Shown here one piece after another: positions 3,679-12,688 of a stretch of 33,123 nucleotides of DNA. Made by a program: the position numbers and the translations under genes. This DNA comes from Actinomycetota bacterium (GTDB taxonomy: Bacteria > Actinomycetota > Actinomycetes > Actinomycetales > Kineosporiaceae), in NCBI GenBank assembly GCA_016213575.1, contig JACRAB010000324.1, positions 1 through 33,123 of the forward strand, in the 5' to 3' direction. The first letter of the stretch is position 1; every line of letters begins with the position of its first letter. Below the pieces are notes generated by a model, which saw only the letters and a list, made by a program, of their open reading frames with translations, had not been told where the DNA came from and made no database searches.

Positions 3679-4056
3679 GTGATCGACCACGTGGGCATCC
3701 AGGTCGGGGACGTCGAGGCGTCCGTGCGGTTCTACACCGGCGTCTTCGCCGCGATCGGGCTCAAGGAGGTGATGCGCTTCCCCGTCGCGAAGTCCTACGC
3801 GGTCGGGTTCTCCGGCCCGGACGGCAACCCGGACTTCTGGCTCAGCCCCGCGTTCGGCGACGAGCGGCGCGAGGCGCATCTCGCGCTGCAGGCGCCTGAC
3901 CGGGCCGCGGTGGACGCCGTCCACGCCGCCGCGGTGGCGGCCGGCGTCGAGGTGCTGCACACGCCCCGGGATTGGCCGGAGTACCACCCGGGCTACTACG
4001 CCGTGTTCCTGCGCGACCCGGACGGGCACAACGTCGAGGCCGTCACCCACGCCTGA
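3679..4056 (+). CDS. VOC-family (glyoxalase/extradiol dioxygenase-like) protein
   Basis: A 125-residue single-unit VOC protein with paired beta-alpha-beta-beta-beta modules. It starts MIDHVGIQVGDVEASVRFYTGVF, the classic first strand and helix, and ends with YYAVFLRDPDGHNVEAV, the second-module metal-binding strand. Candidate metal ligands are His4, His67 and Glu120. VOC proteins of this size act as glyoxalase-like lyases, isomerases, dioxygenases or drug-binding proteins, and the substrate cannot be read from sequence. The GTG at 3679 begins the domain exactly and appears leaderless. It converges on the first pirin gene across a 13-bp tandem repeat. Confidence 0.9.
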   Translation: MIDHVGIQVGDVEASVRFYTGVFAAIGLKEVMRFPVAKSYAVGFSGPDGNPDFWLSPAFGDERREAHLALQAPDRAAVDAVHAAAVAAGVEVLHTPRDWPEYHPGYYAVFLRDPDGHNVEAVTHA

Positions 4057-4153: not shown

Positions 4154-5245
<1,092 letters not shown>

Positions 5246-5307
5246 GGGGTCCTCCGGCGGATCGGTCCTGGCGGCGGCTGCAGCGGCTGACAGTGGCTGA
5301 CGACGGC

Positions 5308-6099
5308 TCACGAGAGCCGTGCGTGCATCTCCCAGACGAGGATCTCGGCGTCGGTCGACGCCGTGACCTTCTGGCCGCCGCCGAGGATCCGGGCGGCGTC
5401 GCCGTCCGTCAGCTCGCCCGCGCCCTCGAGCCGCACGGTGCCGCGCGGCACGAAGAGGTGGACGAACGGCGCCTCCGGCAGCGTCACGGTGTCGCCCGCG
5501 GACATCCGCGAGGCGAGCAGCGCGGCGTACTTGTTCTTGATCCGGATGGCGGCGTGGTCGGCGTGCCCGGGCATCCCGGACGCCACCGGCACGAGCCCGC
5601 CGCGCATGAGGTCGTCGGCGATCTCGAGCTGCTCGTAGCCGGGCGCGATCGAACCCTCGTCGGGCACGACCCACATCTGCACGAAGTGCACCGGGTCGAG
5701 GTGCTCCGGGCCGCCCTTCAACCGCCAGGAGTCGTTCTTCTCGCTGTGCAGGATGCCGGTGCCGGCACTCATCCGCTGGGCCAGGCCCGGGTAGATGACG
5801 CCGCTGTGCCCCGTCGAGTCCTGGTGCACGAGCGAGCCCTGCATGACCCAGGTGACGATCTCCATGTCCTGGTGCGGGTGAGTCTCGAAACCGGTGCCGG
5901 GCTTGACGATGTCGTCGTTGTTCACGAGGAGCAGCCCGAAGTGGGTGTTCCGCGGGTCGCGGTGGTGCCCGAAGGAGAACGAGTGCTTGGAGTCGAGCCA
6001 GCCGCCCGCCTGGGTCACGAACCGCTCGCCGGCGCGGCGGACGTCGATGGCCGGGTCCACGACCTCGAGGGTCGACGCGCTCGCGGGGGTGTCGCTCAT
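5308..6099 (-). CDS. Pirin family protein, YhhW/quercetinase-like
   Basis: A 263-residue pirin of the shorter YhhW type. The N-terminal cupin has HFGLLLVNNDDIV, then FETHPHQDMEIVTWVMQGSL (His74, His76) and GTGILHSEKN (His118, Glu120), which are the four metal ligands. The C-terminal cupin ends at EILVWEMHARLS. The family includes E. coli YhhW, which oxidises quercetin in vitro. The ATG at 6099 is chosen over upstream in-frame codons because it has an AGGAG-like site at suitable spacing and begins the family's usual N-terminus. The 20-bp palindrome at 6170-6189 lies 71 nt upstream and may control both pirin genes. Confidence 0.92.
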   Translation of the reverse strand: MSDTPASASTLEVVDPAIDVRRAGERFVTQAGGWLDSKHSFSFGHHRDPRNTHFGLLLVNNDDIVKPGTGFETHPHQDMEIVTWVMQGSLVHQDSTGHSGVIYPGLAQRMSAGTGILHSEKNDSWRLKGGPEHLDPVHFVQMWVVPDEGSIAPGYEQLEIADDLMRGGLVPVASGMPGHADHAAIRIKNKYAALLASRMSAGDTVTLPEAPFVHLFVPRGTVRLEGAGELTDGDAARILGGGQKVTASTDAEILVWEMHARLS

Positions 6100-6169
6100 G
6101 GGGTCCACTCTCCTGTCCGTCCCGACGAGTCTGCCGTGCCGGCTCGTGACCGGCGCGCCGTCCCGACGG

Positions 6170-6189
6170 GTAGTTTCGAATTCAACTAC
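6170..6189 (-). promoter_or_regulatory. Candidate operator upstream of the pirin pair
   Basis: The inverted repeat is GTAGTT-N8-AACTAC with perfect 6-bp arms. The right half extends as TTCAACTAC (GTAGTTGAA on the other strand), and the left half has TCG in place of GAA. Its size and AT-rich symmetry in a GC-rich genome suggest a MarR- or HxlR-type dimer site. No matching regulator gene is adjacent. The MarR gene at 10785 belongs to a related stress-type cluster but has differently spelled sites. Confidence 0.5.
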
Positions 6190-6519
6190 CTGCTGAACGG
6201 TACAGGACGCCGGGGCATTCCGGCGGCGGACGACGGGCACGAGCGGCAGGGAGGACGGCGACATCGGGTCACCCCGGAACACCGGGAGGCGGGGGCCGGT
6301 GACCTCCCCGTGGAGTCACCGACGCCCCGCCCCAGGGACCGCCCCCGGTCCCGCCTCAGAGACGATAGTCATCGCTACGCATGTTTGAAAGCGTTCTCCG
6401 CGCCTGTCCACTCCTTGTCAACTATGGTGTGACCCGCGCATGGAGGCCGTGTCAGGGCGGTCGATCTCGGGGCCATCGCCACATCCGCCGGTACCGGGCG
6501 GACGACTTACGGGGCACGT
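6190..6519. other. Gene-free intergenic region
   Basis: This 330-bp stretch lies between the divergent pirin and unknown genes. It is less GC-rich around 6361-6430. TATGGT at 6423-6428 is a possible -10 for the gene at 6520. TTTGAAAGCGTTCTCC at 6384-6399 resembles half of a LacI-type site with a central CG, but the second half is poor. I see no small gene or stable RNA. Confidence 0.5.
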
Positions 6520-9048: not shown

Positions 9049-9066
9049 AACTTGAACACTCAAGTT
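9049..9066. promoter_or_regulatory. MarR-type operator O1
   Basis: AACTTGA-ACAC-TCAAGTT is a perfect inverted repeat with 7-bp arms and a 4-nt centre. It overlaps the -35 box (TTGAAC, 9053-9058) of the operon promoter. It shares the core TTGA-N4-TCAA with O2, whose centre is 39 bp away. The third gene of the operon is a MarR repressor, its likely ligand. Confidence 0.75.
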
Positions 9067-9080
9067 ATGGTCGGTACAGT
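9053..9080 (+). promoter_or_regulatory. Promoter of the ribA-like/dioxygenase/marR operon
   Basis: TTGAAC (9053-9058), a 16-bp spacer and TACAGT (9075-9080) give a good sigma-A-like promoter. The predicted transcript start is near 9087, between operators O1 and O2. Confidence 0.6.
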
Positions 9081-9090
9081 CGTGCAGAAG

Positions 9091-9102
9091 TTGAGCGCTC
9101 AA
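9091..9102. promoter_or_regulatory. MarR-type operator O2, overlapping the Shine-Dalgarno
   Basis: TTGAGCGCTCAA is a perfect 12-bp palindrome with the same TTGA-N4-TCAA core as O1. It lies just after the predicted transcript start, and its last two bases are the first two of the AAGGAG ribosome-binding site (9101-9106) for the ATG at 9113. Confidence 0.7.
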
Positions 9103-9112
9103 GGAGTCCATC

Positions 9113-9817
9113 ATGCGACCGATCCGCCCCGACGCACCCGCCCCGGCCGTGACCCCGGCGCCTTCGACGACCGCCCCTGTGACCGCGGCGACCGTCCGCA
9201 CCACCGTGACGGTGCCGTTGCGGTTCGCCGACGGCTGGACGACGACCTCGGACGTGTTCACGTTCGACGGGCTCGCGGACGGCAAGGAGCACCTCGCGAT
9301 CGGCCTCGGGGACTGGCGCGCGGCCCTCGCGGGCCGGACGCCGGCCGGCCGGGCGCTCGTGCGGCCGCACTCGGAGTGCCTCACCGGTGACGTCCTCGGC
9401 TCGCTGCGCTGCGACTGCGGCCCGCAGCTGCGCGAGGCGGCCGAGCGGATCACCGGGGCCGGCGGGTTCCTGCTGTACCTGCGCCAGGAGGGCCGCGGCA
9501 TCGGCCTCTACGCCAAGCTCGACGCCTACGCGCTCCAGGACGACGGCCTCGACACCTACGCCGCCAACCGGGCGCTCGGGCGCGCGGACGACGAGCGCGA
9601 CTACACGGCCGCCGCGCAGATGCTGCAGGCGCTGGGTGCCGGTGAGATCGACCTGCTGAGCAACAACCCGGACAAGGCGGTCCAGCTCGAGGGCCTCGGC
9701 GTCCGGGTCGCGCACCGGGTCCCGACGGCGGTGCACCTGTCGACGGCGAACGCCCGGTACCTGCAGGCGAAGGTCACCCACACGGCGCACACCATCGCGC
9801 TGCCCCTGGCGGTCTGA
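9113..9817 (+). CDS. ribA: GTP cyclohydrolase II (RibA-type, stand-alone)
   Basis: A 234-residue GTP cyclohydrolase II, which opens GTP to 2,5-diamino-6-ribosylamino-pyrimidinone phosphate, the first committed riboflavin intermediate. Zinc ligands are Cys89, Cys100 and Cys102 in SECLTGDVLGSLRCDCG. The substrate/catalytic block is LRQEGRGIGLYAKLDAY (about 123-139), and LLSNNPDK replaces the usual LLTNNP. There is no fused DHBP synthase (RibB) domain. The C-terminus departs from housekeeping RibA: the usual ERVPL appears as HRVPT and the GH(L/M) after the final Lys is absent. This suggests a paralogue with a special role. The AAGGAG site is 6 nt before the ATG. It is first in an operon with a dioxygenase and a MarR regulator, under operators O1 and O2. 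Confidence 0.9.
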   Translation: MRPIRPDAPAPAVTPAPSTTAPVTAATVRTTVTVPLRFADGWTTTSDVFTFDGLADGKEHLAIGLGDWRAALAGRTPAGRALVRPHSECLTGDVLGSLRCDCGPQLREAAERITGAGGFLLYLRQEGRGIGLYAKLDAYALQDDGLDTYAANRALGRADDERDYTAAAQMLQALGAGEIDLLSNNPDKAVQLEGLGVRVAHRVPTAVHLSTANARYLQAKVTHTAHTIALPLAV

Positions 9818-9894
9818 CCGCCCGCGGCCCTGCGGACCTTGACGGACCCGCGCCGCCCACCCACCCTGACGACACCAGAACGAGCGAGGACGAC

Positions 9895-10785
9895 ATGAGC
9901 AGCAGCTTCACCTCCCGACCGGCCGCACCGGCCGAGTACGAGGAGTTCCTCCGGACGGCGCTGCCGGCGACCCGCGCGCAGCGCGCGTGGACGGCTGCCG
10001 ACGGCCCGCTGCCGGCCATGTACTACGGCCACGGCGCGCCGCCGCTGCTCGAGGACGCGCGGTGGATGAGCCAGCTCTTCGCGTGGACGCAGTCGATGCC
10101 CAAGCCCAAGGACGTCCTCGTCATCAGCGCGCACTGGGAGTCGGCCCCGCTCAGCCTGTCCGGCACGGCGCAGGGCACCCCGCTCGTCTACGACTTCGGC
10201 GGCTTCCCGCAGATGTACTACGAGATGACGTACGCCAGCCCCGACTCGAGCGCGCTCGCGAAGCGGGTCGCGGCCGCGATGCCCGACACCGAGCCGGTCT
10301 ACGAGCACACCCGGCGCGGCCTCGACCACGGCGCCTGGGTTCCGCTCAAGGTGATGTACCCGGACGCCGACGTGCCCGTCGTCCAGATGAGCCTGCCGAC
10401 GCACGACCCGGCCCGGCTCCTCGAGATCGGCCGCCGGGTCCACGACCTGCGCGCCGAGGGCACCCTCGTCATCGGCTCCGGCTTCCTCACCCACGGCCTG
10501 CCGTTCCTCACACGCGAGCACTGGACCGACCGCGACGCGGCCCCGCCGGCGTGGTCGTCGGAGTTCGACGCGTGGGCCGGTGAGGCGCTGTCGAAGGGCG
10601 ACGTCGACACGCTCGCCTCGTTCGCGAGCGCGGCCCCCGGCATGCCCTACGCGCACCCCACCGTCGAGCACTTCACGCCGCTGTTCGTGACGCTCGGCGC
10701 CGCGCAGACCCCGGACGCCCCGGTCGAGCCGACCGTCGACGGCTTCTGGATGGGGCTGTCGAAGCGGTCCTTCCAGGTCGCGTGA
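9895..10785 (+). CDS. DODA/LigB-type extradiol ring-cleaving dioxygenase
   Basis: A 296-residue class III extradiol dioxygenase of the DODA/YgiD family. These are metal enzymes that open catechol-type rings between or beside the hydroxyls. Visible family motifs are AMYYGHGAPP (His46), VISAHWES (His80), LDHGAWVPL (His145), SLPTHDP (His170), GSGFLTHGLP (His200) and AHPTVEHFTPL near residue 245. Together these supply the metal and acid/base histidines. Length is slightly above the usual 260-270 because of an N-terminal extension of about 38 residues. GAGGA lies about 5 nt before the ATG. The stop TGA overlaps the ATG of the MarR gene by one base, so the two are coupled. The natural substrate (catechol, quinol or a flavonoid-like compound) is not determinable here. 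Confidence 0.9.
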   Translation: MSSSFTSRPAAPAEYEEFLRTALPATRAQRAWTAADGPLPAMYYGHGAPPLLEDARWMSQLFAWTQSMPKPKDVLVISAHWESAPLSLSGTAQGTPLVYDFGGFPQMYYEMTYASPDSSALAKRVAAAMPDTEPVYEHTRRGLDHGAWVPLKVMYPDADVPVVQMSLPTHDPARLLEIGRRVHDLRAEGTLVIGSGFLTHGLPFLTREHWTDRDAAPPAWSSEFDAWAGEALSKGDVDTLASFASAAPGMPYAHPTVEHFTPLFVTLGAAQTPDAPVEPTVDGFWMGLSKRSFQVA

Positions 10786-11351
10786 TGGCGGACCCGACGT
10801 CGGCGACCCTGGCGGCCGCATCGCCCGGGCAGCCCTCCGGCGCGGCCGCCGGGCGGTCCGGGCCGCGGTGGCTCACGGACGCCGAGCAGCAGGTCTGGCG
10901 CGGTCTCATGCCGGTGCTCCACGAGCTGCCCGCCGCCCTGGACCGCCAGCTCCAGTCCGACGCCGGGATCCCGCACACCTACTACGTGATCATGGCGATG
11001 CTCTCCGAGGCACCCGGCCACGAGCTGCGGATGAGCGAGCTGTCCGAGGTCACCGCCAACTCGCTGAGCCGGCTGTCCCACGCGGTCGCCCGGCTCGAGG
11101 GGTACGGCTGGGTCCGGCGCCGCAAGTGCCCGACCGACCGGCGCGGCCAGATCGCCATGCTCACCGACGCCGGCCTGGCGAAGGTCGTCGAGCTCGCGCC
11201 CGGCCACGTCGCCGCCGTGCGGCGGTTCGTCTTCGACGCGCTCTCCCCCGAGCAGGTCGAGACGCTCGGCCGGATCTCGGAGGCGATCGCCGCGGCGATC
11301 GCCTCCGCGGGGCCCGGCGCACCGGGCGGCGGCCCGGTCGACGACGCCTGA
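10785..11351 (+). CDS. MarR-family transcriptional regulator of the ribA/dioxygenase operon
   Basis: A 188-residue winged-helix regulator. After a Pro/Ala-rich N-terminus comes the MarR core: YYVIMAMLSEAPGHELRMSELSEVTANSLSRLSHAVARLEGYGWVRR is the helix-turn-helix, and RKCPTDRRGQIAMLTDAG is the wing with its conserved D-R. The C-terminal helices form the dimer interface. The ATG at 10785 overlaps the dioxygenase stop. A GTG directly in front (10782) would add one residue. As the last gene of the operon it most likely represses the O1/O2-controlled promoter, and so its own expression, until an aromatic or quinone ligand binds. The Cys in RKCPTD sits in the wing and could be redox-sensitive. That is inference. 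Confidence 0.92.
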   Translation: MADPTSATLAAASPGQPSGAAAGRSGPRWLTDAEQQVWRGLMPVLHELPAALDRQLQSDAGIPHTYYVIMAMLSEAPGHELRMSELSEVTANSLSRLSHAVARLEGYGWVRRRKCPTDRRGQIAMLTDAGLAKVVELAPGHVAAVRRFVFDALSPEQVETLGRISEAIAAAIASAGPGAPGGGPVDDA

Positions 11352-11369: not shown

Positions 11370-12272
11370 TCAGCGCACGAGGTTCACCGCGGAGAGCACC
11401 GTGACGACAAGGACGATCCGCTCGAAGAGCACCTGGTCGATCCGGCGGATCGCCCAGCGGCCCACGACGGCGCCGGCGACGACGCCCGGCGCGAGCACCA
11501 GGTCCATCCCGAGCGCCTGCCGGTCGAGCAATCCGAGGCCGATGCTGAACGGGACCTTGACGAGGTTGAACAGGGCGAAGAGCCACGCGCCCGTGCCGAG
11601 GAACGCGAGCATCGGCATCCGCATCGAGAGCATGTAGAGCGACATCACCGGGCCGCCCGCGTTGGCGACCATCGTCGTGAAGCCGGTCAGCGAGCCGTAG
11701 AACGCGGCGGCCGCGTGCCGGGCCCTGCGCGTCCCGGCGGCCGACGCCGCGTCTGCCGCCTCCGCCGTGGTCGTCGCGGGGGTCGTGGCCGGGGCCGTCG
11801 CCGTGGCTGTGGTCGTCGCGGCGGCCGGGACCGGGGCCGCCGCCGGCTCCTGGGCCTGCCGGGAACGGGTCCACAGGTTCACGCTGACGAGCAGCAGGAG
11901 CACGACGCCGATCGTTCGGCGCATCACCGTGTCGTCGACCGTCGCGACGAACAGCGCGCCGAGGAGGATCCCGACGAGGACCGTCGGCATGAGCCTCAGC
12001 AGGGTGCGCCAGTGCGCGTGCGACCGGTACGACCACACCGCGAAGACGTCACCGAGGATGAGCAGCGGCAGGAGCACCCCGGTCGACTCCCGGGCCGGCA
12101 TCGTCGCGGCGAAGATCGCCACGCTGATCGAGGCGACCCCGCCGATCGCGGTCTTCGCGAAGCCGACGAGGACCGCCGCCAGGACGAGCAGGACGATCTC
12201 GCCCGGCGACCAGCCGGCGAACCACGCCGCGACGTGGTCGCCCAGGGAGGTCACAGGGCCAGCGTTCGCCAT
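11370..12272 (-). CDS. TauE/SafE-family membrane transporter
   Basis: A 300-residue polytopic protein with two halves of about four spans each. The first half contains VLVGFAKTAIGGVASISVAIFAATMPARESTGVLLPLLILGD, and the second has FYGSLTGFTTMVANAGGPVMSLYML. Both are TauE/SafE repeat signatures. The family exports or imports sulfite, sulfoacetate or other organic anions, and the substrate is unknown here. Between the halves lies an Ala/Thr/Pro-rich insertion (about residues 138-181) that is longer than usual. ATG 12272 is chosen; an in-frame GTG at 12323 is possible, and neither has a strong Shine-Dalgarno. It converges on the MarR gene with an 18-nt gap. Confidence 0.88.
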   Translation of the reverse strand: MANAGPVTSLGDHVAAWFAGWSPGEIVLLVLAAVLVGFAKTAIGGVASISVAIFAATMPARESTGVLLPLLILGDVFAVWSYRSHAHWRTLLRLMPTVLVGILLGALFVATVDDTVMRRTIGVVLLLLVSVNLWTRSRQAQEPAAAPVPAAATTTATATAPATTPATTTAEAADAASAAGTRRARHAAAAFYGSLTGFTTMVANAGGPVMSLYMLSMRMPMLAFLGTGAWLFALFNLVKVPFSIGLGLLDRQALGMDLVLAPGVVAGAVVGRWAIRRIDQVLFERIVLVVTVLSAVNLVR

Positions 12273-12373
12273 GCCGCCCGCAGCGTCCAGTCGGCGGACG
12301 GCCGTCTCGGCATCCGGTCGCACCGTAGGCTGCGGGGAGCCCGAGGCGAACCCTGACCCAGGAGGAGGACACC

Positions 12374-12688
12374 GTGGTCGTCGAGCACGTGCTCATCACC
12401 GTGACACCCGGCCGCGAGGCCGAGTTCGAGGCCGAGTTCCCCAAGGCCCGGGCGGTCCTCGACGAGGCCGAGGGCTTCCTCTGGGGCGAGCTGCACCGCT
12501 TCGTCGAGCGCCCGTCGACGTTCCTCGTGCTCCTCGGCTGGGAGACGCTCGAGGCGCACACCGTGACCTTCCGGAACAGCGACCTCTTCCCGCGGTGGCG
12601 CGCCGTCGTCGGCCCGTTCTTCGCCGAGCCGCCCGTCGTCGAGCACCTGCGCCCCGTCACCGCGGGGATCACCGCCGTCAGCTCGTGA
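12374..12688 (+). CDS. ABM-domain (antibiotic biosynthesis monooxygenase-like) protein
   Basis: A 104-residue single-domain protein of the dimeric alpha/beta-barrel ABM fold. It begins with VVEHVLITVTPGREAEFEAEFPKARAVL and has FLWGELHRFVERPSTFLVLLGWETLEAH and FRNSDLFPRWRAVVGPFF, the typical ABM strand-helix order. Members include cofactor-free quinone-forming monooxygenases and haem-degrading enzymes, and many have no known role. GTG start with AGGAGGAGG (12360-12368) 5 nt upstream. It is divergent from the TauE gene. Its last 11 nt overlap the end of the convergent gene at 12678. Confidence 0.88.
   Translation: MVVEHVLITVTPGREAEFEAEFPKARAVLDEAEGFLWGELHRFVERPSTFLVLLGWETLEAHTVTFRNSDLFPRWRAVVGPFFAEPPVVEHLRPVTAGITAVSS

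Follow-up and report, generated by a model that had tools for sequence, protein, structure and literature searches.

An extra GTP cyclohydrolase II gene shares a predicted SCO3205-type MarR operon with an extradiol dioxygenase in an actinobacterium

Why would an enzyme that commits GTP to flavin synthesis be encoded beside a ring-cleaving dioxygenase and a MarR-family regulator? This question is raised by a 33,123-nucleotide stretch of DNA (hereafter, the window) from a soil-type actinobacterium, in which ribA, a DODA/LigB dioxygenase gene and marR lie co-directionally on the + strand with one control region ahead of them (Table 1). A sequence-only reading had placed three linked genes here, the last two overlapping by one base. 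All three were found, and the dioxygenase stop codon (TGA, 10783-10785) and the marR start codon (ATG, 10785-10787) have a single base in common. The three genes are supported as one operon behind one promoter. No gene for a flavin reductase, monooxygenase or quinone reductase was found within the window operon itself; the operon has no flavoenzyme of its own, and the flavin link considered below is drawn from relatives.

Table 1. Features of the operon and its control region (window positions), and RibA fusions in relatives (positions in the respective loci)
Feature	Position	Strand	Basis
Distal putative operator	9049..9066	+	Perfect 18-bp dyad AACTTGA-ACAC-TCAAGTT; similar placement in relatives
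Probable -10 element TACAGT	9075..9080	+	17 nt after TTGAAC; TTGAnn-17-yAnnnT in relatives
Proximal putative operator TTGAGCGCTCAA	9091..9102	+	Overlaps AAGGAG ribosome-binding site
ribA, stand-alone GTP cyclohydrolase II (RibA)	9113-9817	+	234 aa, PF00925 E 5e-53
DODA/LigB class III extradiol dioxygenase	9895-10785	+	PF02900 E 3.5e-27
marR, SCO3205-type MarR, putative repressor	10785-11351	+	MarR_2 E 2e-8
RibA-HsaA-like fusions	L111 6235-8085; L118; L122; L144 4956-6824		Single reading frames

The control region had been read as a promoter flanked by two palindromes built on TTGA-N4-TCAA, and both are present (9052-9063 and 9091-9102), the first being TTGAACACTCAA within the distal 18-bp dyad. 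They are the only TTGA-N4-TCAA sites in the window, against 0.02 expected, and two such sites arose in 1 of 100 shuffles of the window. Pattern and family searches of the whole 5.9 Mb genome returned only eight single sites, and a pair spaced by 20-45 bp occurs once, in the window. The TTGAAC of the distal operator (9052-9057) also serves as the -35 element. Both hexamers of the proposed promoter hold, while its spacer is 17 nt rather than 16 nt (9052-9057 to 9075-9080). A generic sigma-70 scan returned no promoter, TTGAAC..TACAGT being too weak for that scan; the promoter is supported because the overlap of -35 element and operator and the 17-nt distance to a -10-like hexamer recur in relatives. 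In 15 loci, a TTGA half-operator also serves as a -35 element and is followed by a -10-like hexamer (3.5/50 expected by chance; spacers of 16-18 nt allowed; some loci are close relatives from the window genus and family f15), the spacing being 17 nt in 14 of them and 16 nt in one. Among MarR-linked loci, the N4 spacing was counted 21 times, against 0-1 times for TTGA..TCAA spacings of 2, 3, 5 and 6.

The closest solved protein to the window MarR is SCO3205 (3ZPL; phmmer E 1e-45), with 80 of 154 aligned positions identical (52%). The SCO3205 crystal shows the TTGA bases in contact with Ser73 and His77, the latter touching G8 (PMC3737563). Both base-contacting residues are conserved in the window MarR, where His77 corresponds to H99, as are the phosphate-contacting Arg60, Arg74, Ser76 and Arg81. 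Six of the seven helix-turn-helix DNA-contact residues (Arg60, Arg72, Ser73, Arg74, Ser76, His77 and Arg81) are identical, the exception being a Leu in place of Arg72, which in SCO3205 contacts the flanking base A5 or phosphate and not TTGA (PMC3737563). The Trp16/His119 pair of the salicylate pocket is conserved too. The window MarR combines homology to SCO3205 with paired TTGA-N4-TCAA operators, and we predict that it is an operator-binding repressor of the SCO3205 type. Among MarRs encoded beside RibA genes of the same subfamily, those with His at residue 77 were paired with TTGA-N4-TCAA in 12 cases and with TTCA-N4-TGAA in 1, and those with Tyr in 0 and 26 cases, respectively. This covariation between residue 77 and operator base 8 (G or C; Fisher 3e-9, which overstates independence because the rows are phylogenetically related) fits the crystal contact between His77 and G8, as predicted if residue and base are coupled by structure. 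Operator specificity may be predictable from this one MarR residue.

How much of this arrangement is new? In Streptomyces coelicolor, the SCO3205 gene is divergent from sco3204, which encodes a class III extradiol dioxygenase, and SCO3205 binds two operators in the sco3204-sco3205 intergenic region, one of which is TTGAACTCTCAA; its further targets encode a YceI-like protein (sco5533) and a protein resembling malonic semialdehyde reductase, and the authors were unable to assign it a function (PMC3737563). Given this pair (3ZPL), the MarR-DODA-operator combination is a known unit and not new. Both systems pair a class III extradiol dioxygenase with a MarR from one subfamily, and both have two operators with a TTGA-N4-TCAA core in a common control region. 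They differ in that the S. coelicolor genes are divergent, whereas those of the window are co-directional behind one promoter, and in that RibA is not mentioned in PMC3737563. The SCO3205 regulon also includes YceI-like and nitroreductase-like targets; a YceI-like site occurs in the window genome and a nitroreductase in a Lentzea operon. Of the other sites in the window genome, one is upstream of the YceI-like gene, one separates a DoxX-like gene from a MarR paralogue (the YceI and DoxX names were given by eye) and one is near another MarR paralogue, a set that agrees with the regulon of S. coelicolor. Three more (G000:C82:4923, C107:116 and C339:13585) have no obvious target gene, about the number that chance predicts. 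A candidate functional analogue of the window MarR, judged by comparison of the two systems, is AcsR of Corynebacterium glutamicum, a MarR repressor of the extradiol dioxygenase C23O that is released by catechol; its operator differs (AATTTA-N9-14-TAAATT), and riboflavin is not mentioned in the report (PMC13118786). The new element here is the link of RibA to the SCO3205-type MarR/DODA unit, and our literature search found no paper in which ribA is connected with both MarR and a dioxygenase. RosR of C. glutamicum, presumably the nearest operator match, was not used in the analysis.

The window genome carries three GTP cyclohydrolase II genes. The housekeeping copy is a fused RibBA followed by ribH (contig C503), and the third is a stand-alone RibA (G000:C15 3737-4426, L005) beside a divergent RibD-type reductase; the window ribA is thus an extra copy. 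The sequence-only reading had doubted that it was the housekeeping gene and had proposed looking for a second ribA or ribBA in a riboflavin context, which RibBA adjoining ribH provides; together with the C15 RibA, this excludes the window gene as the housekeeping, sole or main GTP cyclohydrolase II. The C-terminus that had been called atypical is simply that of the subfamily. The window RibA scores above the NCBIfam RibA subfamily cut-off and is 73% identical to the C15 RibA, with which it clusters weakly on a quick tree in which many forks lack support, and 46% identical to the RibBA domain of the same genome. Its Zn cysteines C89, C100 and C102 and Tyr139 (E. coli Tyr105) are conserved and, with most active-site motifs, invariant across 14 aligned subfamily members, supporting its prediction as a GTP cyclohydrolase II with intact active-site residues. 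It shares the Zn cysteines, catalytic Tyr and stand-alone form with E. coli RibA (2bz0), but unlike E. coli RibA/RibBA it is an extra copy under a MarR operator and belongs to a distinct actinobacterial subfamily. SCO6655, which we take to have GTP cyclohydrolase III-type activity with Met replacing the catalytic Tyr, offers another possible activity, which is unsupported for the window RibA given the invariant Tyr139.

The dioxygenase retains candidate metal-binding or catalytic residues His46, His80, His145 and His259. It shares the LigB family and conserved histidines with YgiD/4,5-DOPA extradiol dioxygenase (2pw6, 8in2) and matches the YgiD model (E 2e-46) with 158 bits, under the equivalog cut-off of 233, so that it is assigned to the LigB/DODA family and not to YgiD. 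We regard it as a class III extradiol dioxygenase and a candidate cleaver of catechol-like rings.

Conserved gene order and sites, proposed earlier as a check on the operon, were found in relatives, other families included. Two genomes of the same genus retain the operon complete, with both operators and its flanking genes. Farther away, Saccharothrix yanglingensis has ribA-DODA-marR with two sites, Actinacidiphila glaucinigra has two sites and a marR divergent from ribA-DODA, and Nocardia miyunensis and Catenulispora have marR together with ribA-DODA; in family f15, marR diverges from DODA-ribA-ribD and the sites lie in between. Altogether, ribA and DODA are linked in six genera. We sampled about 94 loci of the RibA subfamily and sorted them by neighbours; genes were called with a simple script, with tblastn rescue limited to MarR, DODA, domain-swapped RibD and nitroreductase. 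In 28 loci, RibA lies in a cluster with a PTPS-like gene, a glycosyltransferase, a membrane protein and a RibD-type reductase. An SCO3205-type MarR gene lies within 3.2 kb of ribA in 43 of the 66 non-PTPS loci versus 1 of the 28 PTPS-cluster loci, and a strict site lies upstream of ribA in 19/66 versus 0/28 (0.06 expected); relaxed scoring added TTCAAATTTGAA-type sites in streptomycete loci. We reject a chance neighbourhood, since the arrangement is conserved in other families and the PTPS clusters, as a control, do not show it. A cluster of the same kind, common to Micromonospora, Salinispora, Nocardioides and others, is seen in L126, of the window genus, where PTPS-like, glycosyltransferase and lysyl-PG-synthase-type membrane genes lie near the counterpart of the C15 RibA.

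The partners of these operators vary among relatives. DODA is often under a TTGA-N4-TCAA operator without ribA, and ribA without DODA also occurs. A full-length RibD (TIGR00326, above cut-off) follows ribA in the f15 operons. In Streptomyces, a domain-swapped RibD (reductase first, deaminase second) is encoded in divergent orientation to marR-ribA, and the TTCAA sites come in pairs spaced by about 44 bp (L155, L162-L164, L267-L283 and similar streptomycete loci); such loci would put the first steps of flavin synthesis under repressor control. A nitroreductase gene lies inside the ribA operon of Lentzea. In family f10, the gene for a VOC protein overlaps ribA; at L106 (6333-7867), L112 and L127, a ribA under a TTGA-N4-TCAA site overlaps the gene for a two-domain VOC protein that shows weak similarity to catechol 2,3-dioxygenases. 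In four genomes, including that of Arthrobacter sp. Soil762, RibA is fused in frame to an HsaA-like flavin-dependent monooxygenase. The added half matches HsaA, the oxygenase of 3-HSA hydroxylase (PDB 2rfq, E 3e-49), to which the window has no counterpart; it scores below the HsaA equivalog cut-off, so its substrate may differ. We found no paper on a joint RibA-HsaA-like enzyme. On the quick tree of RibA, the partner contexts are scattered (many forks being unsupported), which suggests that partners were switched several times.

On this evidence, we favour the view that ribA-DODA-marR is probably a self-regulated operon of an SCO3205-type MarR, in which an aromatic ligand induces flavin supply and ring cleavage together. 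Regulation by the MarR and its operators is well supported, and we infer that it takes the form of repression. Before induction, a MarR dimer on the two TTGA-N4-TCAA operators would keep the three genes off: occupancy of the distal operator would mask the -35 element and keep RNA polymerase away directly, which is how a repressor should act, and occupancy of the proximal operator would cover the ribosome-binding and start region. A small aromatic ligand, probably phenolic, would release MarR, as the conserved Trp/His salicylate pocket suggests, and RibA and DODA would then be produced together. The extra RibA, as the first committed flavin enzyme, would push GTP into flavin synthesis, more flavin would supply the flavin-using oxidoreductases of the same response, and DODA would open a catechol-like ring and so remove the aromatic. 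That flavin is the output is suggested by the HsaA-like fusions, by the RibD and nitroreductase partners and by work in Mycolicibacterium, where added copies of rib genes, ribA among them, increase both FAD and flavin-limited oxidation, ribB and ribC being the strongest (PMC10251532). RibA catalyses the first step only and may not be limiting for flux. The flavin boost proposed from sequence gains support from the fusion and from the RibD or nitroreductase added in relatives' operons.

The main rival to flavin as the output is coenzyme F420, which the extra RibA would feed so that F420-dependent reductases handle the aromatic or quinone. RibA and RibD make 5-amino-6-ribitylaminouracil, a precursor common to flavin and F420, and in mycobacteria both routes use RibA and RibG (PMC12855090). 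In Saccharothrix, an F420-type luciferase-like oxidoreductase (TIGR03560, above cut-off) lies directly upstream of ribA-DODA-marR, and NpdG-like proteins occur near DODA-MarR in L134, L136 and L154 (the L134 member below cut-off). The in-frame fusions, however, join RibA to an oxygenase of the HsaA type, a kind whose members work with reduced flavin, and the Lentzea partner is a nitroreductase, usually an FMN-binding family; we consider the F420 route unlikely.

It is rather unlikely, in our estimate, that RibA starts a dedicated pathway to a pterin- or pyrimidine-type small molecule that DODA modifies, as had been offered as an alternative. Such a pathway would suit the 73% identical paralogue, which adjoins a RibD-type reductase in the same genome and groups weakly with the window RibA, and the L126 counterpart, whose PTPS, glycosyltransferase and membrane genes point to a non-riboflavin pathway. 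Yet modification of the RibA product by DODA is unlikely because either can occur alone under this operator; the partners vary between RibD, nitroreductase, monooxygenase fusion and VOC protein, with no constant tailoring enzyme, and the PTPS clusters have no such operator and, in 27 of 28 loci, no MarR. We give the least credence to the ribA copy being regulatory baggage, inactive or redundant and adding nothing to flavin flux. A complete ribBA lies elsewhere in the genome, and the second RibA that M. tuberculosis encodes, Rv1940, is reported to be non-functional (PMC12855090); against this, the active-site residues invariant in the 14 subfamily members argue for a working enzyme, and the RibA association is seen again in lineages far apart and in the form of gene fusions.

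Beyond the window, flavin supply induced with demand may be a wider theme, an idea to which we give slightly less than an even chance: Actinobacteria would repeatedly have put the first committed flavin step under the aromatic-sensing repressor of aromatic-oxidising enzymes, up to the RibA-monooxygenase fusion. SCO3205-type MarRs are common in actinomycetes and a DNA complex has been solved; the recurring link to RibA, RibD, flavin-dependent oxygenases, nitroreductases and extradiol dioxygenases, backed by the operators, offers them a testable function, demand-driven flavin supply while aromatics are oxidised. If true, this would be the first physiological theme for these widespread repressors and would explain the second or third ribA in many actinobacteria. 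A possible use lies in raising flavin supply in biocatalysis strains.

Two pirin/quercetinase-type genes (4154-6282, - strand) and a VOC protein gene (3679-4056) lie a few kb from the operon, and on its other side are TauE (11370-12323, - strand) and an ABM monooxygenase (12374-12688). All are without an operator and are possibly part of the same aromatic-handling neighbourhood.
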